Positions 53,461 to 64,000 of a DNA stretch of 64,000 bases are shown here, in pieces. Position numbers and translations under genes: made by a program. The DNA comes from Oceanospirillum maris DSM 6286 (GTDB lineage: Bacteria > Pseudomonadota > Gammaproteobacteria > Pseudomonadales > Halomonadaceae): positions 62,001-126,000 of the forward strand of contig NZ_AUGW01000011.1 of the NCBI RefSeq assembly GCF_000422865.1. The letters run 5' to 3'. Within the stretch, counting starts at the first letter, position 1. The number at the start of each line of letters is the position of its first letter. The notes under the pieces were generated by a model. It worked only from the letters and a program-made list of their open reading frames with translations. It ran no database searches and was not told the origin of the DNA.

Positions 53461-53542
53461 TATTTTCATCTTATTTTGAATCACGCTCATTTGACCCCAG
53501 TCCCATCTGACGGTATTGTGCGCGGGTTGTTAGGTCATAAGG
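53461..53542. other. Spacer between MFS gene and riboswitch
   Basis: A short unstructured gap that must hold the promoter of the riboswitch-controlled operon. No clear -35/-10 pair is seen. Confidence 0.3.
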
Positions 53543-53760
53543 CTGTACCAGCCTGTGTTAAAAGGGAAGTCGGTGCCCATTGAATGATTCATTCTTTGCA
53601 TTCCGACACTGCCCCCGCAACGGTAAATCAGCTAAGTCCTTTCTTTAGGCCACTGTAGTGCAGGTTTGAGTGATAACACTTAAACCCTGCTATGGGAAGG
53701 TGAAAGGATCAAACCGGTTAAACGGTTTACTGATGAGTCCGGATACCTACCTGACAATAG
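53543..53760 (+). promoter_or_regulatory. Cobalamin riboswitch (adenosylcobalamin class)
   Basis: The conserved blocks are in order: AAAAGGGAAGTCGGTG near 53560-53575, CCGACACTGCCCCCGCAACGG split at 53603-53623 (the B12 box), and GAGTCCGGATACCTACCTG at 53735-53753. It is followed by 200 bases of leader, then the cobalt-uptake and corrin genes. It should switch the operon off when cobalamin is plentiful. Confidence 0.93.
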
Positions 53761-53960
53761 ATTTTCCATGGTGTTGCGGAGGGCTTCACCGGGCGACAAA
53801 AGCTTTTATAGCAGAGACGTTGCTTATAACAGATGTTGCTTTTTTCTAAGCCGATTGTTTTATTTCTGTTCTCTGATTAACCCTATTTGAGTTTTAGTGT
53901 GCTTATCCTCCCCAACTTCGCCTGTATTCTTTTATCAAACAGATCAGACGGAGCATTTCT

Positions 53961-54803
53961 GTGTTTACTATTCCATTTAACCCGAGCCAAACGTTCAAAT
54001 CAGCCTGTTTAACCGCAGTGATGACTATCCCTGGGCTGGTTTTCTCTAGCGCTGCATCGGCTCATTTCCAAATGATTTATACGCCCGAGCTGCTAAAAAA
54101 TCGTGGTGGTGAGATCGAATTAAAAATGCCCTTTACCCACCCTGCGGCCAATGGTCATGTGATGGACATTGCTACACCTGAAGCCTTCTATCAGGTGCGT
54201 AAAGGTAAGAAAACCGATCTGCTGCCTCAGTTAGAAACATCAACTTGGAAAAGTGCAGATGGTGAGGGTGTGTCCTATCAATCTAAGGCTCGTTTAAGAG
54301 GTTTAGGGGATAATATTTTTATCTTACAAAGTGCGCCTTACCTTGAGCAAGCAGAAGATATTTATATTCAGCAGTTTGCCAAAACCATCGTTAATGTCGG
54401 TAGCCTACCAACGGATTGGGATAGCGAATTAGGCTTATCCGCTGAGATTGTACCTTTATCTAAGCCCTACGCCCTGTACGAAGGTGGCAGCTTTACCGGC
54501 GTGGTAAAAAGTGCAGGAAAGCCCGTGCCGTTTGCTGAGATTGAGGTTGAGTACGTTAATTATCAGCCGGAGATGAAAAGCAACGCCTTCTCTAGTCAGC
54601 CAACCATTGACCCTCCGGCTGATGCCTTTATCACCATGACGATTAAAGCCGATGCTAACGGCACCTTTACCTTTGCCTTGCCAAAAGCAGGACACTGGGG
54701 TTTCTGTGCTCTGGGTGTTGGCCCTAAGACCGAGCACAAGGGTAAAGAGCTTTCCCAAGACGCGGTAATTTGGGTGCAGGCGCATCCAGTCACAGATCTT
54801 TGA
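53961..54803 (+). CDS. DUF4198 periplasmic protein of cobalt/nickel uptake (NikK/CbiK-like)
   Basis: A 280-residue exported protein from a GTG with GGAG seven bases upstream. Signal peptide ends near SSAASAHFQM; mature N-terminal His as in NikK-type proteins. Later KPYALYEGGSFTGVVKSAGK and ANGTFTFALPKAGHWGFCAL are DUF4198 blocks (beta-sandwich). Such proteins help CbiM/NikM transporters by binding the metal. First gene under the riboswitch. Confidence 0.85.
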   Translation: MFTIPFNPSQTFKSACLTAVMTIPGLVFSSAASAHFQMIYTPELLKNRGGEIELKMPFTHPAANGHVMDIATPEAFYQVRKGKKTDLLPQLETSTWKSADGEGVSYQSKARLRGLGDNIFILQSAPYLEQAEDIYIQQFAKTIVNVGSLPTDWDSELGLSAEIVPLSKPYALYEGGSFTGVVKSAGKPVPFAEIEVEYVNYQPEMKSNAFSSQPTIDPPADAFITMTIKADANGTFTFALPKAGHWGFCALGVGPKTEHKGKELSQDAVIWVQAHPVTDL

Positions 54804-54836: not shown

Positions 54837-54892
54837 ACTACGTAGCCTTTTTTATAGCTCTATTGATAGCTCTGTTGATAGCGCTACGTAGT
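54837..54892 (+). repeat. Inverted repeat enclosing 12-bp tandem repeats before cbiM
   Basis: ACTACGTAGC (54837-54846) and GCTACGTAGT (54883-54892) are perfect inverted repeats. The loop contains ATAGCTCTATTG and ATAGCTCTGTTG in tandem (54854-54877) and a third partial unit. Confidence 0.75.
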
Positions 54893-55554: not shown

Positions 55555-56200
55555 CCGTTTTATCTATTGCTTCTGTGCTTTTATTATTAGCATTTCCTCT
55601 GGAGCCTATGCCCATAATGTTATCGGTGGGGTTTATGCCATTGGCAACCAGGTTGAAGGCGAAGTGGGCTTTTCTAACGGTGATATGGCTAAGGCTGGCA
55701 CCTTGGTACAGGTTGAAAACGGTAATGGCGAACGGCTTGGAGAAACACAGATCGGTGATGATGGCATGTTCTTTTTTACCGCATCCAAGGCGGAGGATCA
55801 TTACTTTGTGGTTGACATGAGCTCTGGCCATATTGCTAGGTTGCATCTACCTGCGGATGAGATAACCCTACCTGAACAGACAGGCTCAGCCGGAAGTGTG
55901 GTGAGCCGAGTTGATATCCCCAGTGCTACCCCCGCCCTAACGGCACAGCAGATTGAACAGGCCGTTGCCCGTCAGATCAAACCCCTGCGCCAAGAGCTGG
56001 CCGCTTATCAAGCCAAGGCTAACCTGCAGAATGTTTTAGGGGGCATCGGCTATATCTTCGGTATCTGCGGCTTAGGTATTTGGTGGCAAAATCGCCAACA
56101 GAAAAAAGCTCACATGACAAATAGCCACTTTCAAATAACAACTAGCCACTTAAAGAACACCATTAAAGAGCACTCGGGTGACGAATGCCTAAAGCCCTAG
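55547..56200 (+). CDS. NikL/CbiL-like auxiliary protein of the cobalt transporter
   Basis: A 217-residue protein. Signal peptide ends near SSGAYAHNV; the mature part starts with a His-containing beta domain (carboxypeptidase regulatory-like: NQVEGEVGFSNGDMAKAG, FFTASKAEDHYFVVD). A coiled segment (residues 125-160) precedes a single C-terminal membrane helix (LGGIGYIFGICGLGIWW). The cytoplasmic tail contains an imperfect 7-residue tandem repeat. Overlaps cbiM by eight and cbiQ by 16 bases. Not the CbiL methyltransferase. Confidence 0.82.
   Translation: MVNRFIYCFCAFIISISSGAYAHNVIGGVYAIGNQVEGEVGFSNGDMAKAGTLVQVENGNGERLGETQIGDDGMFFFTASKAEDHYFVVDMSSGHIARLHLPADEITLPEQTGSAGSVVSRVDIPSATPALTAQQIEQAVARQIKPLRQELAAYQAKANLQNVLGGIGYIFGICGLGIWWQNRQQKKAHMTNSHFQITTSHLKNTIKEHSGDECLKP
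56117..56158 (+). repeat. 21-bp in-frame tandem duplication in the NikL-like gene
   Basis: Codons for TNSHFQI (56117-56137) are followed by TTSHLKN (56138-56158), sharing ACAA-TAGCCACTT. The duplication is in the C-terminal tail. Confidence 0.75.
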
Positions 56201-56967
56201 AGCACAGTGCAACCTCTTGGAAAGGGCAGGCACTTAAGCATAATCGTTCTATTTTAGACCGGCTTGACCCGCGCCTGCGCCTGTTGTTTACCTCGGTTTT
56301 TGCCCTGTTAGTAGTGGCGGCTAATAGCTTGGGTGTGCTTTTGGTATGTTTGGCAACAGCGTTAACTTTCGCATTATTGGCGAAGCTAAACCTAAGGCGC
56401 ACCCTGCGCCGCGTTTTAGCGATGGATCTTTTTGTTATCTTTTTGCTTTTTATGCTGCCTTTTACAACAGAAGGCACGCCTTTATTTGAAGTGGCAGGTT
56501 TTGTTGCCAGCGTTGAAGGCGTGCAACATGCTTTATTTATTGGGCTTAAAGCGAACAGCACCTTGCTGTGCCTTTTGGCCTTGATCGGTACGTTAAGTGC
56601 ATCAACGTTGGGGCATGCTTTAGCTTATCTAAAGGTGCCTGAAAAGCTGGTGCATCTCTTACTCTTTACCGTACGTTATCTGGATGTTATTGGACAAGAA
56701 TACAAGCGTATGCGTCGTGCGATGCAGGCCCGTGCTTTTGTTATGAGGGCTAATCGACATACGTGGCGGGCGATCGGTTATTTGATCGGTATGTTGTTGG
56801 TGCGATCACTGGAGCGTTCAGAACGAATTAATAACGCCATGAAGTGCCGAGGGTTTACCGGACAGTTTTATCTCCTCGATAACCTACGCTTGACCCGTAT
56901 TGATTACCTGTTTGCTATCTTCTCTTGCGGCTATTTAGGCGCATTAATTGGAGCTATTTTGCTATGA
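56185..56967 (+). CDS. cbiQ: Cobalt ECF transporter membrane subunit CbiQ
   Basis: A 260-residue membrane protein with about five helices. CbiQ/T-component signatures: ILDRLDPRLRLLFTSVFAL, RYLDVIGQEYKRMRRAMQAR and RSLERSERINNAMKCRGF; the second and third are the Ala-Arg-Gly coupling motifs that contact the ATPase. Confidence 0.9.
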   Translation: MPKALEHSATSWKGQALKHNRSILDRLDPRLRLLFTSVFALLVVAANSLGVLLVCLATALTFALLAKLNLRRTLRRVLAMDLFVIFLLFMLPFTTEGTPLFEVAGFVASVEGVQHALFIGLKANSTLLCLLALIGTLSASTLGHALAYLKVPEKLVHLLLFTVRYLDVIGQEYKRMRRAMQARAFVMRANRHTWRAIGYLIGMLLVRSLERSERINNAMKCRGFTGQFYLLDNLRLTRIDYLFAIFSCGYLGALIGAILL

Positions 56968-57722
56968 GCCTTGAAGCCCACCGAGAACCATCATCACCGT
57001 TGCTACAGGCGCAAAAGCTTTGCTACCGTTATCCCCGACGCGGCGTGGTGTTGGATCAGGTGGATTTTGATCTGCATATCGGTGAGCGGGTGGCTCTAAC
57101 AGGGGCTAATGGCACCGGTAAAACGACATTTTTACATCTACTGGTCGGGTTGAAAAAAGCTAAGGCAGGACAGGTTATCGCCTTTGGTAAACCCTGTGTG
57201 TCTGAGGCGGACTTTGTCTGTGTAAGGTCACGAATTGGCTTTTTGTTTCAAGACCCAGATGATCAACTTTTTTGCCCTACGGTACTCGAAGATGTGGCCT
57301 TTGGCCCATTGAACCAAGGTAAAAGTCGAGGGGAAGCCTTGGGGATTGCTCAACAAACGTTACAGGATCTGGGAATGGCCGATTTTGCCGATGCGGTCAC
57401 TCATCAGTTGTCCGGCGGTGAAAAGCGTATGATCACCCTAGCAACCGTTTTAGCCATGCAACCGGATATTTTGCTACTTGATGAGCCAAGTAATGCCTTA
57501 GACCAGCAAGCCCGTGAGCGGCTGCTAACAACGCTTAAAAGCTTACCTCAAGCGATGCTGATTATCTCCCATGACCATGATTTTCTGGCTCAGCTCGCCA
57601 CTCGAACCCTCGTGCTGGATGCGGCTCAGCTTGTCACCCGAACCCCCGTGCTGGACTCGGTTGAGATTGAAAAAAAGGCAACAGGTTTATCCGAGCCTAA
57701 CAATATCGAGGCGGTGTTATGA
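56964..57722 (+). CDS. cbiO: Cobalt ECF transporter ATPase CbiO
   Basis: The protein is 252 residues from the ATG at 56964, which overlaps the cbiQ stop (ATGA). Walker A GANGTGKTTFLHLL, Q-loop FLFQDPDDQLF, signature HQLSGGEKRMITLA, Walker B ILLLDEPSNALD and H-loop ISHDHDFL. The C-terminal region has an imperfect 12-residue tandem duplication (AQLATRTLVLDA / AQLVTRTPVLDS). Confidence 0.92.
   Translation: MSLEAHREPSSPLLQAQKLCYRYPRRGVVLDQVDFDLHIGERVALTGANGTGKTTFLHLLVGLKKAKAGQVIAFGKPCVSEADFVCVRSRIGFLFQDPDDQLFCPTVLEDVAFGPLNQGKSRGEALGIAQQTLQDLGMADFADAVTHQLSGGEKRMITLATVLAMQPDILLLDEPSNALDQQARERLLTTLKSLPQAMLIISHDHDFLAQLATRTLVLDAAQLVTRTPVLDSVEIEKKATGLSEPNNIEAVL
57587..57658 (+). repeat. 36-bp imperfect tandem duplication in cbiO
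   Basis: Two 36-bp units (57587-57622 and 57623-57658) share most bases, both starting GGCTCAGCT and containing GTGCTGGA. They encode 12-residue repeats close to the C-terminus. Confidence 0.85.
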
Positions 57723-59803
57723 CAGAGCTTAATGCTGCAAGCAATCGACAGTCGGTTAGCGACGACCGTGACCCGTTTAGCGCGATGCATTATCCCTTTA
57801 GCGCAATTATCGGGCAGGAAACCTTTAAGTTAGCCCTATTGTTAGCGGCGATTAATCCAGCCTTGGGCGGGGTTGTGGTCAGCGGGCCACGGGGTAGCGC
57901 GAAGTCTACTCTAGCAAGAGCTTTGGCTGATCTTCTTCCTTCCCAAACTCTTGTTCAAGAACAGAAACAGTCTGCGGAATTTGTCACTCTGCCTTTAGGG
58001 GCCAGTGAAGAGATGTTGTTGGGTAGTCTTGATCTGCAAAAGGTACTTGATCAGCAAGAGGTGGTTTTTCGCCCTGGCTTGTTAAGCCGTGCCCACGGTG
58101 GTGTGCTTTATGTGGATGAGGTTAATCTACTGCCCGATTATCTTGTTGATCAGCTCCTAGATGTCGCCGCCAGTGGTATCAACCGCATTGAACGCGACGG
58201 GATCAGCCATAGCCACCCAGCCAAATGCTTATTGATCGGTACTATGAATCCTGAAGAGGGTGAGTTGCGTCCCCAGTTATTGGATCGTTTTGGTCTTTGT
58301 GTACAGTTGGAAAACCATTACCAAGTGCAGGATCGCATTGAGATTGTGCGGTTAAGAGAAGCTTTTGACCGTGATCCTATGCGTTTTTGTCGTGATTACG
58401 AGCAGGCTCAACAGCTATTGCAGCAGACCGTTCAGCAAGCCCGAGAATTATTGCCTACGGTGTTATGCAGTGATGCTCTGCGTTATCAAATTGCCGAACG
58501 TTGCTGTGCGGCACAGGTGGATGGTCTTCGGGCCGATATCGTCTGGTATCGTGCTGCAACCGCCCATGCTGCCCTGCAGCAGCGACAAGAGATTACCGAA
58601 GCCGATATTCTTGCGGTAGAAGAATTGGTACTGGTACATCGTCGAAATGTATCTGGCTCTAATCCTAATTCAGGTTCAGGTTCAGGTTCAGGTTCAGGTT
58701 CTCAAGATAATACTCAGAATAAGCCTGAGAATAGGCCAAAGGAAAACACGCAGGACGATCAACGCCCGCAAGATGAGCCGGAAAAAAGTGACCGTAAGCC
58801 GTCGTCGCCTTTTAAGCGTCCAGAAGGTAGCAAGCGGCCTTTGCCTGCCCAAACGAGTTTATCCCAATCCGGTTTACCTCAGTCTGATTTACCGAAGAAC
58901 ATGCAAGAAAAAGACTCAAAAGCCGAAGGGGATTGGGGCCAGTTAACCGCAGAGCAACAGCAAGGTTATCCTTTAGAAAACATGCCCTTGTTACCGAGCT
59001 TAAATTGGCAACGATTACAGCAAAACCCATCTGCGACCCAAAGGAGAAGGGGGTTATCTGAGTCTGCATTACAGGCCTCTATTATGCGTAGCGGTGGCGC
59101 TAAAGGATCATGTCGTAAAGGGGTGGGCGCATTTGGTGATTTTAAAATAGCGCAAGCAAAGCAAACCGCTGGCGCTGTCGATTGGTTTAAAACCTTATCC
59201 GGTTGGTTTAAGACCTTGCCGGAGTCTAGAGGCCAACAGCCATTGCGATCCTTGGTGTTTCAAACTAAACGCCAAAGCCAGCCGATTTTGCATCTTGTTA
59301 TGTTGGATAGCTCTGGCTCCTTGCTCAATGATGAACCGGGCCGTAACCGTTTGGAGCAGGCTAAAGCCTTGGTCGAGCAGATCAGCCAGCACGCTTATCT
59401 TAAGCGCCAGCCGCTGGCTTTAATCGGCTTCGGTAATCAACAGGTTCAGGTCTTTACTGGCAAAAAAGCGCCGAAAAGTCTTAAAGGCTGGCTTAACCAG
59501 TTATCAGTTGGTGGTGGAACCCCTCTTAAGGAGGCGTTGCAGCAGGCTTCTCGTTATCTTCGCCAAGCCCTACGCCAACAGCCAACCCTGCATTGTTATA
59601 ACTACCTGTTTACCGATGGGCGTACAACGGCCTCTTTTTCCGGTTTAGCCTTGGCCGGTGAAACCCTCTTGATTGATACCGAACAGAGCACCATAAAGCG
59701 CGGGCGTTGCATGGAATTGGCTACACAGCTATCGGCTACTTACATTCCTTTGGCGGAGTTACTGTCCGAATCGTTCAATGCTGATGCCCAGGGTGCGGTT
59801 TAA
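57719..59803 (+). CDS. Fused ChlI/ChlD-type AAA+ and VWA chelatase subunit (cobaltochelatase-associated)
   Basis: A 694-residue protein. The AAA+ module (about residues 25-300) has Walker [16 protein letters not shown], Walker [15 protein letters not shown] and [19 protein letters not shown] low-complexity linker (about 315-480) is rich in Ser, Gly, Pro, Gln and Lys and includes (SG)5. The C-terminal von Willebrand A domain has the MIDAS motif [11 protein letters not shown] and TDGRTTASF. Its position points to cobalt insertion with a CobN-type subunit, which is not in the window. It has three tandem duplications (58670, 58859, 59180). Confidence 0.87.
58670..58699 (+). repeat. Five perfect TCAGGT hexamers in the chelatase gene
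   Basis: Five consecutive copies encode [10 protein letters not shown] in the linker. Copy-number slippage would keep the frame. Confidence 0.95.
58859..58888 (+). repeat. 15-bp tandem duplication in the chelatase linker
   Basis: Two 15-bp units (58859-58873, 58874-58888) encode LSQSG and LPQSD; a partial third (LPKN) follows. Confidence 0.7.
59180..59221 (+). repeat. 21-bp tandem duplication in the chelatase gene
   Basis: Units at 59180-59200 and 59201-59221 encode DWFKTLS and GWFKTLP, at the border of the linker and the VWA domain. Confidence 0.85.
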
Positions 59804-59805
59804 CC

Positions 59806-61056
59806 ATGTGGCCAGAAAGTACCGAGCAGCCAAAACCTTTACGTTCTGGGTTAACAACGGGTAGCTGTGCGACGGCCTGTTGTGTTGCGGCGGTGCAAGC
59901 GTTACTAGCCAAACGAAGACCCGAACAGGTGGAGATTACTCTGCCAAAAGGGCAGCAAGTCTCTTTACCGATAGTGGCCTATCAAGAGATTGAAAACGGC
60001 ATGATCACCGCCACCATCAAGGATGCAGGGGATGACCCAGATGTGACCCACGGTGCGACCGTCTTTGTAGAGCTGCGCTTAATCTCTGATGTTGGTGTGC
60101 GCTTTAAAGCGGCAAAGGGCGTAGGCACGGTCACCCGTGAAGGTTTGGTGTTACCTGTTGGTGAGCCTGCGATTAACCCTACTCCCCGAAAAATGATCGC
60201 GGATCATCTGACCAAAACCGCCTACACCTACCAATATCAAGGGGGGTTCGAAGTGGCGGTAGGGGTCGAGCGCGGCGAGCAGATCGCACTGAAAACCATG
60301 AATCCGCGTTTGGGTATTTTAGGGGGATTATCGATTTTAGGCACTACCGGTATTGTTCGCCCCTACTCCTGTTCCGCCTATATTGCGTCGATTAAGCAGG
60401 GTATTGATGTTGCAGCCCATAACGGCTTTAGTCATATTGCCGCGACCACGGGCAGCAGCAGCGAGCAAGCCATTGCTGCCCATTATCAGCTACCTGAAAC
60501 CGCTTTGATCGAGATGGGAGATTTTGTTGGGGCTGTACTTAAGCATATTAAATATAAACATAAGCGTGTTAAACATAAGAAGATTGAGCACAAAAATAAC
60601 CTGCTTGAAACGAACCACAGCAAATATGAACTCGATAAATCACCGTCCATTGTCAATATTGAAAAACTGAGCCTGTGCGGTGGTTTTGGCAAGTTAAGTA
60701 AGCTGGCGGAAGGGCATCTGGATTTGAACAGCCGAGTATCGGCAATCAGTTTTTCCTCTTTGGCAAAACTGGCCGCTGAGGCTGGAGCGGATGAGTCACT
60801 TCAACAAGAGATCATCCGTTGTAATACCAGTATTCAAGCGCTACAGCTTTGTCAGCAAGCGAATGTTGATCTTGCCTCTGCGGTATGCAAAGCCGCATGG
60901 GAGGTGGCTCAAGGTTATCTGCCTACAACCTGCGAGCTGGAGGTCTGGGCGGTGGATCGTAAGGGGCGTTTTGTAGGCTGTTATTCCTCTGGGCCTGTCT
61001 CTATCTCTATTTCTGCATCACCTATCCCTGCTGCGACTCCAAGGACAATATCGTGA
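59806..61056 (+). CDS. cbiD: Cobalt-precorrin-5B (C1)-methyltransferase CbiD
   Basis: A 416-residue CbiD, about 40 longer than usual. Start region [20 protein letters not shown] and [15 protein letters not shown] are CbiD hallmarks; [15 protein letters not shown] follows. Extra length is an insertion at about residues 245-285 that is Lys/His-rich and built of four 5-residue units. CbiD is the deacylating-route methyltransferase of the anaerobic pathway. Confidence 0.92.
60541..60600 (+). repeat. Four degenerate 15-bp units in cbiD
   Basis: Contiguous 15-bp units at 60541, 60556, 60571 and 60586 encode [15 protein letters not shown] and EHKNN, an insertion with much higher A content than its surroundings. 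Confidence 0.8.
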
Positions 61057-61910
61057 CTCAGACTCGTATTTTGCTATTGGGGGGCACTTCCGATGGCCGA
61101 AAACTTGCCCAGAAGCTGCATCAACAGGGTGTTACGCTGATCTACAGTGTGGCTGGATTGAGCGTGGCTGGCTTGGCCCGTCAGCAGAACCTTGCTTGCC
61201 CTGTGATCAGCGGTGGTTTTAGTCGTTTTTCTATGGCTACGGAAGGGAACCGGTCCGTTACCGGCCTGGCTCGCTTTTTAGAGCAAGAGAATATCCATTT
61301 AATCCTTGATGTTACCCATCCCTATGCCGCAACCATGAGTCAGAACGCTGTTCTCGCGGCGGCAATTGTGGGTATCCCTTGCTGGCGTTTCCATCGTCCG
61401 GCCTGGCAGGCTCAACCGCAGGATAACTGGTTTGAGTACCCCGATTGGTTCAGCTTAACCCAAGGCCTCGGTCGCTATTTACAAGGGCTATCCACCACGG
61501 GGAGTATTCTGTTGACGACGGGTCAGCTAAGCGCGCCCATGCTGACTCAGCTATTAAATAGCACGGAAACAGATGAACAGAATCCGGCGGGACATTCCCT
61601 TGGCATTATTATGCGCACCGCTGCCCCTTCTCGGGTGCCGCTACCCAAGACGATTCACTGGTTAAAAGCTATTGGCCCCTTTGATTTGGCTGGTGAACAG
61701 GCGTTATTTGCTAAATATGATGTGCGCGTTCTGGTCAGCAAAAACAGTGGTGGTATCGCCACTGAGCCTAAGTTAGAAGTCGCTCGTCGATTGAATATCC
61801 CCGTTTTTATGTTAGCCCGCCCAACGCTTGAGCCAGCGGATCGCCATTTTTGCACGGTGGAATCTCTTTCTGATGCTGTCGCTAAATTATTTAAGGATAG
61901 TGTTTTATGA
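61053..61910 (+). CDS. cobK: Precorrin-6A/cobalt-precorrin-6A reductase (CobK/CbiJ)
   Basis: A 285-residue CobK/CbiJ protein. N-terminal dinucleotide-binding [16 protein letters not shown], then [15 protein letters not shown], and the late [20 protein letters not shown] motif are diagnostic. The YSVAGL segment contains a 5-residue tandem duplication. Overlaps cbiD by four bases. Confidence 0.92.
61146..61175 (+). repeat. 15-bp tandem duplication in cobK
   Basis: Units AGTGTGGCTGGATTG and AGCGTGGCTGGCTTG (61146-61160, 61161-61175) each encode SVAGL, two mismatches apart. Confidence 0.85.
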
Positions 61911-62557
61911 GTCTTGATTTGAGCTATATCGCCGATCCGGTGGGGATTGAGCGGGAGAGTTTTCGCCAAATCCGCCAGTTAACCAATTTAAGCACCTTTA
62001 ATCGTGAAGAGCAGCAGGTGGTGATGCGCATTGTGCATAGCGTGGGAATACCGGAAATCGCCTCGCAGGTACGCTTTAGTGCTAACGCCTGTCAGAGCGG
62101 TTTGGCGGCATTATCCAATAACGAGCACAGGATCTTATGCGATGTCGAGATGGTTAAGCAGGGGATAACCAAGCGGATGATTGATCGTGAGCCACTTTGT
62201 TTTTTGAACCATTCAGAGACTCAATCCCTTGCTAAAGAGCGTGGTGAAACACGATCTATGGCTGCGTTAGAGCTATGGCGGCCACGGTTAAAAGGCAGTG
62301 TTGTTTTGATCGGCAATGCCCCTACGGCCCTGTTCCGGTTGTTGGAGATGATCCATCAAGGGGCCGATAGACCTGCGTTGATTATCGGAATGCCCGTGGG
62401 CTTTGTCGGCGCGGAGGAGTCGAAAGCGGCACTGTGGCAGAGCCATCAGGATTTGGAGATAGAGTGCATTACCCTGTTGGGGCGGCAGGGTGGTAGCGCG
62501 GTAACGTCTGCCAGCTGCAATGCTTTGTTGCGCTGTTTACGCGGAGAGTTCTACTGA
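61907..62557 (+). CDS. cbiC: Precorrin-8X methylmutase (CobH/CbiC)
   Basis: A 216-residue mutase: MRIVHSVGIPEIASQVRF holds the conserved catalytic His, and VLIGNAPTALFRLLEMI and GMPVGFVGAEESKAALW are family signatures. Moves the C11 methyl to C12 to give hydrogenobyrinate or cobyrinate. Stop overlaps the cobL ATG (TGATG). Confidence 0.95.
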   Translation: MSLDLSYIADPVGIERESFRQIRQLTNLSTFNREEQQVVMRIVHSVGIPEIASQVRFSANACQSGLAALSNNEHRILCDVEMVKQGITKRMIDREPLCFLNHSETQSLAKERGETRSMAALELWRPRLKGSVVLIGNAPTALFRLLEMIHQGADRPALIIGMPVGFVGAEESKAALWQSHQDLEIECITLLGRQGGSAVTSASCNALLRCLRGEFY

Positions 62558-64000
62558 TGCTGCATGTGATCGGGCTTTCTGTCGATGGCGGTTCTGTCGA
62601 TGGCGGTTCTGTCAATGGCAGTTCTGTCAATGATGGTACAGGGCTATTAACACCTGAGGCTTGCGCAGTGCTCTACGATGCCGCACTGGTAATAGGTTCT
62701 AATCGGCAACTGGCTTTGGTTGAGCATTTATGGCAGGGACTTGAGTCTAGTCCTAAATCTAAACCTAGATATAAACCCGCAACCCTTGAACTGCCTAAGT
62801 TAAAGCAGCTAAAGGCGGTGATTACACCCTATTTGGATCAAGGGCAGTCTGTGGTGGTGTTAGCCTCCGGTGATCCGCTTTTTTATGGTATTGGCCGTTG
62901 GTTGGGACGGCAAGGGTTTCAGCCTGAACAGCTGCAGTTTTATCCGGCGGTTTCCAGCGTACAAGTGGTCTGTCATCGACTGGGCTTATCGCTACAGGAT
63001 GTGGAGGTTGTTAGCCTGCACGGGCGACCTTTAAACACCTTACGCCGCCACCTTAAACAGCGGAGCACACTGGTGCTTCTGACCGATTCGAAAAGCTATC
63101 CCCAAGCCATTGCTCAGTTATGCCTTGATACGGGGTTTACAGATTTTGAGCTAACTCTATGTGAAAACCTAGGCTATCCGCAGGAGCAGATTCGTCGTTA
63201 TAAAAGCACTTACCCAGAAAGCGATTTCTTAGAGAGCACTTTCTTAGAGAGAACTTTCTTAGAGAGCATTTGTTTAGAAAGACATATCTGGCCGGATGAT
63301 GATGTTGCCCCTTTGCACATTACTGTGTTGCGGCTCAATCAGGTGGATCATTCCCGAGGTTATCTGCCAGAGTTTCCCGGTATTGCTGATGCTGATTTTA
63401 TTACCCATATCGATAAGCAGGTGGTAGATGAGCAGGTGGGCTCTCGTTCTGGGGCTGGTTCGATTCAGAGCTCAAAAGGGCGGACGAGTGCGATGTTGAC
63501 TAAGCGAGAGGTTCGTTTGGGTATTTTGTCTCTGTTGCAGCTTGGTGCTGAAGAGACTCTGTGGGATATCGGTGCGGGTTGTGGCGGTGTGGCGGTAGAG
63601 CTGAGCTTTTGGCAGCCAAGGGCCCAGGTGTTTGCGATTGAGCATCATCCAGAGCGCTTTGCTTGCCTTGAAGCCAACCGCCAGCGCTTTGGTGTCTCCG
63701 CCAACCTGATACCCGTTCAAGGGCGTGCGCCGGATGTTTTAGCTGAGCTTCCCCCAGCCAATAAGGTCTTCATTGGCGGTAGTGATGGTGAGTTGTCGGC
63801 GCTATTAACACGCTGTTGGCAACAGTTGCCAGAGCATGGGGTTTTGGTGGCAAGCGCCGTTACCGAGAACAGTCGTCAAACCTTGTTGCGCTTTTTGGAT
63901 GATGGGCTGCAGGGGCAGTGTGAAACCCTGCAAATAGCGGTTAGTAAAGGCGATCAACTGGCAGGACAGTTGCTTTATCGACCGGCATTGCCCGTCACTC
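62557..64000 (+). CDS. cobL: Precorrin-6Y C5,15-methyltransferase (decarboxylating), CobL/CbiET fusion, cut by window end
   Basis: The frame is open from the ATG at 62557 to the window end, 481 codons. The CbiE methyltransferase part (about residues 1-225) begins MLHVIGLSVDGG and has VVLASGDPLFYGIGRWL and YPAVSSVQVVCHRLGLS. The CbiT part (from about 310) has TKREVRLGILSLLQLG and the SAM site WDIGAGCGGVAVEL near residue 336. Two sets of four 5-residue repeats are inserted, one at residues 8-27 in the loop after the first beta strand and one at 224-243 near the end of CbiE. The first sits where the tetrapyrrole methyltransferase family binds substrate, so its effect is worth testing. Confidence 0.93.
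   Translation, partial: MLHVIGLSVDGGSVDGGSVNGSSVNDGTGLLTPEACAVLYDAALVIGSNRQLALVEHLWQGLESSPKSKPRYKPATLELPKLKQLKAVITPYLDQGQSVVVLASGDPLFYGIGRWLGRQGFQPEQLQFYPAVSSVQVVCHRLGLSLQDVEVVSLHGRPLNTLRRHLKQRSTLVLLTDSKSYPQAIAQLCLDTGFTDFELTLCENLGYPQEQIRRYKSTYPESDFLESTFLERTFLESICLERHIWPDDDVAPLHITVLRLNQVDHSRGYLPEFPGIADADFITHIDKQVVDEQVGSRSGAGSIQSSKGRTSAMLTKREVRLGILSLLQLGAEETLWDIGAGCGGVAVELSFWQPRAQVFAIEHHPERFACLEANRQRFGVSANLIPVQGRAPDVLAELPPANKVFIGGSDGELSALLTRCWQQLPEHGVLVASAVTENSRQTLLRFLDDGLQGQCETLQIAVSKGDQLAGQLLYRPALPVT
62578..62637 (+). repeat. Four 15-bp units near the start of cobL
   Basis: Units at 62578, 62593, 62608 and 62623 encode SVDGG, SVDGG, SVNGS and SVNDG. The first two are identical in DNA. Confidence 0.93.
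63226..63285 (+). repeat. Four 15-bp units in the middle of cobL
   Basis: Units at 63226, 63241, 63256 and 63271 encode FLEST, FLERT, FLESI and CLERH, with TTCTTAGAGAG shared by the first three. Confidence 0.92.

Follow-up and report, generated by a model that had tools for sequence, protein, structure and literature searches.

Short in-frame tandem duplications in the cobalamin cluster of Oceanospirillum maris and in the rest of its sampled genome

We looked at the short in-frame tandem duplications carried by the cobalamin biosynthesis genes of Oceanospirillum maris DSM 6286. The window, meaning the whole stretch of 64,000 nucleotides that was analysed, corresponds to G000:C7:62001-126000, where G000 is the analysed genome, a 3.71 Mb draft in 43 contigs. 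In the window, a cobalamin riboswitch is followed by a DUF4198 gene that stands before cbiM (riboswitch and gene region, 53515-54803). Since the riboswitch is located upstream of the DUF4198 gene and not directly before cbiM, this gene is probably the head of the operon. The order after the riboswitch is DUF4198, cbiM, a NikL-like gene, cbiQ, cbiO, a chelatase gene, cbiD, cobK, cobH (cbiC) and cobL, and the cluster extends beyond the window end with cobI, cbiG, cobJ, cobM, cobW, cobN and cbiX, the span from cbiM to cbiX being 18.8 kb. The chelatase gene product has AAA and VWA parts. The NikL-like label is that of an earlier note on this DNA, and the Pfam match is sub-threshold only. The names cobI, cobJ and cobM are based on gene order, as Pfam gives just a tetrapyrrole methylase for each. 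Of the proteins, those of cobK and cobL alone were matched by sequence to solved structures. In a search of six genomes of the genus, G000 included, neither a chelatase orthologue nor a full-length match to cobL was found in G001, G004 and G005, that is in three of the five other genomes.

Arrays in the window were called with Tandem Repeats Finder (TRF), which returned seven of those listed below, and those in genes were compared with 300 codon shuffles of the gene concerned, scored at an unchanged period; place and period were taken as given, with no correction for their having been chosen. The 21-bp array of the chelatase gene and the arrays of cbiD and cobK were missing from the TRF output even at score 30, and their basis is the codon shuffles and the alignments. 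G002 and G003, two genomes of the same genus, supplied orthologues, as did up to nine genomes belonging to other genera or families and the metagenome-assembled genome L072; the number of orthologues differs by gene, since not all genomes had one for each. The riboswitch and the arrays are as follows.

53515..53768, + strand: cobalamin riboswitch (Rfam RF00174, 86.8 bits, gathering score 31.5)
54854..54886, + strand: 12 bp x 2.8, between the DUF4198 gene and cbiM (TRF score 52); counted as a noncoding array
56110..56151, + strand: 21 bp x 2, C-terminal tail of the NikL-like protein (TRF, alignment, 0/300 shuffles)
57587..57655, + strand: 36 bp x 1.9, near the cbiO C-terminus (TRF, alignment, 0/300 shuffles)
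58669..58701, + strand: 6 bp x 5.5 (Ser-Gly), chelatase linker after the AAA part (TRF, Pfam, alignment, 0/300 shuffles)
59178..59219, + strand: 21 bp x 2, chelatase (alignment, 0/300 shuffles)
60541..60600, + strand: degenerate 15 bp x 4, cbiD (alignment, 0/300 shuffles)
61146..61177, + strand: 15 bp x 2, cobK (alignment, 0/300 shuffles)
62577..62632, + strand: 15 bp x 3.7, near the cobL N-terminus (TRF, alignment, 0/300 shuffles)
62752..62777, + strand: 12 bp x 2.2, variable stretch of cobL (TRF, 1/300 shuffles)
63225..63282, + strand: 15 bp, about 4 copies, cobL directly after the methylase domain (TRF, Pfam, alignment, 0/300 shuffles)

The codon-multiple duplications that the earlier note had described in the NikL-like, cbiO, chelatase, cbiD, cobK and cobL genes were thus recovered by TRF, shuffles and alignments, except for one item in the chelatase gene given below, as was its 12-bp repeat before cbiM. 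Two of the arrays double a conserved motif. In cobK, the motif S[VI]AGL, present once in each of the six orthologues, is doubled with a gain of 5 residues, and in the chelatase the 21-bp array doubles a WFxTL-like motif and adds 7 residues relative to all 12 aligned orthologues, each of which has one copy (exact in eight, with substitutions in four). As the duplicated segment is in both proteins a motif found singly in every orthologue, these are local head-to-tail duplications. The two cobL arrays with 15-bp units also stand out from all six orthologues, by 16 residues for the N-terminal one and by 19 to 23 alignment columns for the one following the methylase domain. The cbiD array lies within a stretch missing from 5/6 orthologues, G042 having six different residues there. 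The NikL-like array corresponds to 6 additional residues relative to G002 and G003, the sole two orthologues found. In cbiO, the segment LATRTLVL, single in these two genomes, is doubled, and the copy sits in a diverged C-terminal tail that aligns without net gap.

Beyond the window end (L005), cobJ, cobW and cobN contain arrays as well, each with 0/300 shuffles. The cobW and cobN segments are extra residues in G000 (8 orthologues each), and for cbiD, cobW and cobN the array site is occupied in some orthologues by a shorter stretch of different sequence. For cobJ, the comparison rests on G002, G003 and L072, the available G042 stretch ending short of the array: the G000 protein has 4 residues more than those of G002 and G003, in a diverged tail, and the L072 protein ends before this tail. 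Two candidates were at chance level, namely the 2 x 15 bp near 58869 that the earlier note listed in the chelatase gene (73/300 shuffles) and a His-rich stretch of cbiX (178/300 shuffles reached the observed score). Another chelatase segment, 58028-58062, called by TRF with 0/300 shuffles and absent from the earlier note, was rejected as a lineage-specific duplication because it aligned without gaps in all 12 orthologues. Save for this match, the orthologues are without the segments.

Arrays were then counted in a sample of 1.08 Mb of G000 (52 pieces, 29% of the genome), the pieces lying at fixed coordinates, in the larger contigs and in the neighbourhood of the window, rather than at random. 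Genes were defined as open frames of at least 100 codons, so that the class called noncoding includes short genes and RNA genes. The coding DNA contained 46 arrays in 940 kb (4.9 per 100 kb), and 44 of these had periods divisible by three. In the noncoding DNA, about nine times denser with 61 arrays in 143 kb (42.8 per 100 kb), this held for 23 of the 61 (Fisher P = 1e-10). Periods of 12-24 bp accounted for 35/46 coding and 57/61 noncoding arrays. Both classes exceeded their random counterparts: the noncoding count was 62 against 1, 3 and 2 after first-order Markov resampling, and the coding count was 49 against 11.5 per codon shuffle, these 49 including two masked-run artefacts and one foreign locus (L072). 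Elsewhere in G000, arrays were located in the MsrB tail, CheA, FliK, CcmB, an ABC transporter and the N-termini of CofH and CobB, several of them at protein ends. The units are unrelated, with a common 10-mer in 21 of 5,671 array pairs and an extensive resemblance in one pair. Since arrays are found across the sample, with a frame bias in coding DNA and with unrelated units, duplication takes place genome-wide and is filtered by the reading frame. The earlier note had proposed a local mutational process filtered by frame; the filter is supported, and the local character in part only, for arrays are spread over the sample and yet densest in the cluster. A mobile coding element, which it had argued against, was likewise rejected here, as no single sequence family is found across the sites. 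Duplication by end-joining fill-in was also rejected, Ku (PF02735) being found in none of the nine genomes searched.

The arrays are not equally dense in all genes of the sample, and neither of the two outcomes that the earlier note had named as refuting it, equal density and the same segments in orthologues, was obtained, apart from the 58028 segment that it had not listed. The cluster from cbiM to cbiX holds 7 strict arrays in 18.8 kb, while 0.8 would be expected from the 39 present in the other 922 kb of coding DNA (Poisson P = 2e-5), a density about nine times that of the rest of the sample for a locus chosen for its visible arrays. When arrays were placed uniformly, 6/5,000 trials gave any stretch with 7 of them. 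Two other stretches contain 5 arrays each, one being a single giant gene and the other carrying CheA-, CheW-, FliK- and CcmB-like genes. These results indicate that the cluster is real and that arrays are unevenly spread in general. The case for a special 15-bp unit, pointed out as recurrent in the earlier note, is weak: this period is found in 4/7 strict cob arrays and in 5/39 elsewhere (Fisher P = 0.02), a comparison picked after the fact. As a separate observation, G000 has giant open frames of 6,653 and 3,695 residues (L066 and L068) with internal repeats, perhaps surface proteins.

Insertions of at least 4 residues were counted at matched protein identity. The cob genes of G000 have 16 insertions relative to G002 and 14 relative to G003, with 13.0 and 13.4 expected from other genes, so the number is not raised. 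On the relatives' side, 26 insertions were counted against 6.7 expected, for G002 as for G003; therefore either the cob genes of the relatives also gained segments or G000 lost them. The control for these numbers consists of 102 gene pairs (one pair, below 40% identity, fell outside the bins) and mixes lineage and gene effects, because 96 of the pairs are with G001, which is itself array-poor; cobB, which lies on another contig outside the cluster, and the DUF4198 gene are filed there among the other genes.

G002 and G003 were also compared with each other. Their 16 cob genes, cobB being grouped here with them, are 94.9% identical and differ by 9 indels of at least 3 residues, a 12-residue difference in cbiM being left out, and no such indel was detected in 8 other gene pairs (2,955 residues, 81.9% identical), a small control because most fetched stretches had few orthologues in common. 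At the DNA level, the two are distinguished by tandem segments of 36 bp in cbiM and of 18 bp in each of cobL and cobN. An identical run of 8 bases opens the cobL segment and follows it immediately, as slippage would leave, and short direct repeats were seen by eye at the ends of the cobN segment. Each of these differences may be a gain or a loss in either species. Independently of the arrays, the higher identity of the cob genes than of the 8 other pairs hints at an exchange of the operon between lineages.

Array densities differ between genomes, as judged from raw values with no adjustment for G+C. In the congener G001, arrays number 1.1 per 100 kb of coding and 7.8 per 100 kb of noncoding DNA, G000 being four to five times as dense (P = 4e-4 for coding arrays, or 0.002 once the cob cluster is removed, and 1e-6 for noncoding ones). 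No significant difference was obtained between G000 and G002 (P = 0.28 and 0.20). Relative to 150 kb of E. coli K-12, the noncoding difference was significant (P = 0.001) and the coding one was not (P = 0.12). Coding densities as high as that of G000 were seen in small samples of G015 (6 in 106 kb) and G004 (3 in 50 kb), and in G026, of another genus (L055, L110-L112, L147-L150), noncoding arrays were denser than in G000, with 16 in 20 kb. MutS and the nucleases SbcD, RecJ, ExoI and ExoVII are considered to restrain slippage, and all five are present in G000. A defect in SbcD was considered, as its model match is in two pieces in G000 and in one piece in 8 other genomes; this lead was dropped because the gene has an open frame and its additional residues fall in a region that is variable among all five aligned congeners (G000 and four others). 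Separately, the MutS of G001 (G001:C220:59340-61897) matches in two adjoining open frames, possibly a frameshift or an assembly error.

Altogether, these results make it likely that duplication by slippage operates all over the genome, that the reading frame filters its products inside genes, and that the cobalamin cluster is a hot spot through its tolerance of extra residues. Slippage of the growing strand at replication would duplicate short stretches in tandem, mostly of 12-24 bp. Once two copies are present, further slippage would add more, and point mutations would blur them. Duplications of any length could survive between genes, whereas within genes nearly all survivors would be multiples of three, mainly where additional residues, probably at the protein surface, do little harm, as in tails, linkers and loops. 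The cob proteins of the genus would readily accept such residues, which would make the cluster a hot spot, with a possible contribution from a local surplus of recent duplications.

Several observations weigh against this explanation. The cluster is denser in arrays than a uniform process gives. In addition, 8 of the 16 cob insertions relative to G002 are visibly tandem, versus 4/42 in other genes relative to G001 (P = 0.002), or 8/46 when all control pairs are used and cobB is counted twice (P = 0.02). The share in the G000 cob genes relative to G003 is 6/14, and among the other genes of G000 it is 2/2 relative to G002 and 2/2 relative to G003, these four all lying in cobB. For insertions in the relatives, it amounts to 4/26 (G002) and 2/26 (G003) in cob genes, and to 0/23 (G001), 1/5 (G002) and 0/1 (G003) in other genes. 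Random sites of the same genes, scored in the same way, gave 1/16, 2/14 and 0/42. Tolerance alone does not explain the higher tandem share in cob genes. Moreover, one strain of the species was examined, so that no duplication event was observed directly, and among MutS, RecJ, ExoI, ExoVII and SbcD no defect was found in G000 that accounts for its excess over G001. The density and the tandem share, as well as the indels between G002 and G003, would fit an operon that is itself a hot spot of mutation, with local slippage caused when the riboswitch-controlled cluster is replicated or transcribed. This is nevertheless unlikely, given that arrays are found across the sampled genome, including the two other rich stretches, that insertions are not raised at matched identity, and that the G002-G003 control is small and the locus was picked for its arrays.

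A wider proposal than genome-wide slippage with a tolerant cluster is that certain lineages of the family are heritably prone to tandem duplications of 12-24 bp, in the way of mutators but of another type than mismatch-repair ones; this tendency would steadily feed enzymes with new segments and have the cob cluster as its most marked outlet here. We hold this to be possible, if rather doubtful: the excess over G001 is countered by the lack of a significant difference from G002 and by the small samples of G015 and G004, which are as dense. It is very improbable that the inserts are selected, loop copy-number changes tuning the enzymes in the manner of a contingency locus without frameshifts. 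The arrays are in frame, several have 3-4 copies, and in-frame tandem duplications in a beta-lactamase reportedly change its activity (PMC12593533). On the other hand, the insert sequences are unrelated, and no selection for them is needed, because noncoding DNA is richer in arrays and shows no clear frame preference. Finally, a sequencing or assembly artefact would agree with the draft state of the genome, yet the copies differ by point substitutions, the frames are open through the arrays, and events of the same type are found in G002 and G003, so that an artefact is hardly conceivable.

Intragenic minisatellites, or variable-number tandem repeats, are known in bacteria. The arrays are like these in being short tandem units within genes, with lengths divisible by three and copies that differ between lineages, and unlike them in having mostly 2-4 copies, many of them degenerate, in biosynthetic enzymes, and in being known here from one strain. 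In blaKPC, the tandem duplications described are 3-84 bp long, each a multiple of three, and the authors propose that they stem from slippage or a defect in mismatch repair, with another route for larger duplications (PMC12593533). Both cases are in-frame tandem duplications in bacterial enzymes, but those of blaKPC arose recently, in a single gene exposed to drug selection, whereas those reported here are older, affect many genes and have no known selection. In three bacterial species, small variable segments between short direct repeats were ascribed to replication slippage (PMC2884548); the section in question stresses deletions between repeats, while the signal here consists of tandem copies. 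Another study, on Mycobacterium tuberculosis, reports that promoter tandem repeats change in copy number, including one upstream of cysG, which it places at the first step of cobalamin synthesis, and that the variants of one gene family are biased towards staying in frame (PMC12817950). That case resembles ours by the copy change near a cobalamin-synthesis gene and by the in-frame bias, and differs in that the promoter repeats vary in a population, whereas in-frame segments inside cobalamin enzymes are involved here. Searches of the open-licence literature that included the term cobalamin gave no paper describing duplications of this sort within cobalamin genes. The kind of duplication is already known; its place and density are new.

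The cluster offers a clear natural example of enzymes receiving additional segments through small tandem duplications. The noncoding DNA of the genome serves as a control for the frame filter, and the sister species are set apart by further events in this operon. Should the congeners truly differ in rate, the genus would be a place to seek what controls mid-length tandem duplication in bacteria.

The cobB gene, whose start carries a 21-bp x 2 array, lies in a region (L090:7742-14496, G000:C8) that also contains genes resembling those of the coenzyme F420 pathway, which would be uncommon in such bacteria. By Pfam, one encodes an F420-0:gamma-glutamyl ligase and another a CofH-type radical SAM protein, and CofC-, CofD- and CofG-like neighbours of cobB were recognised by reading.

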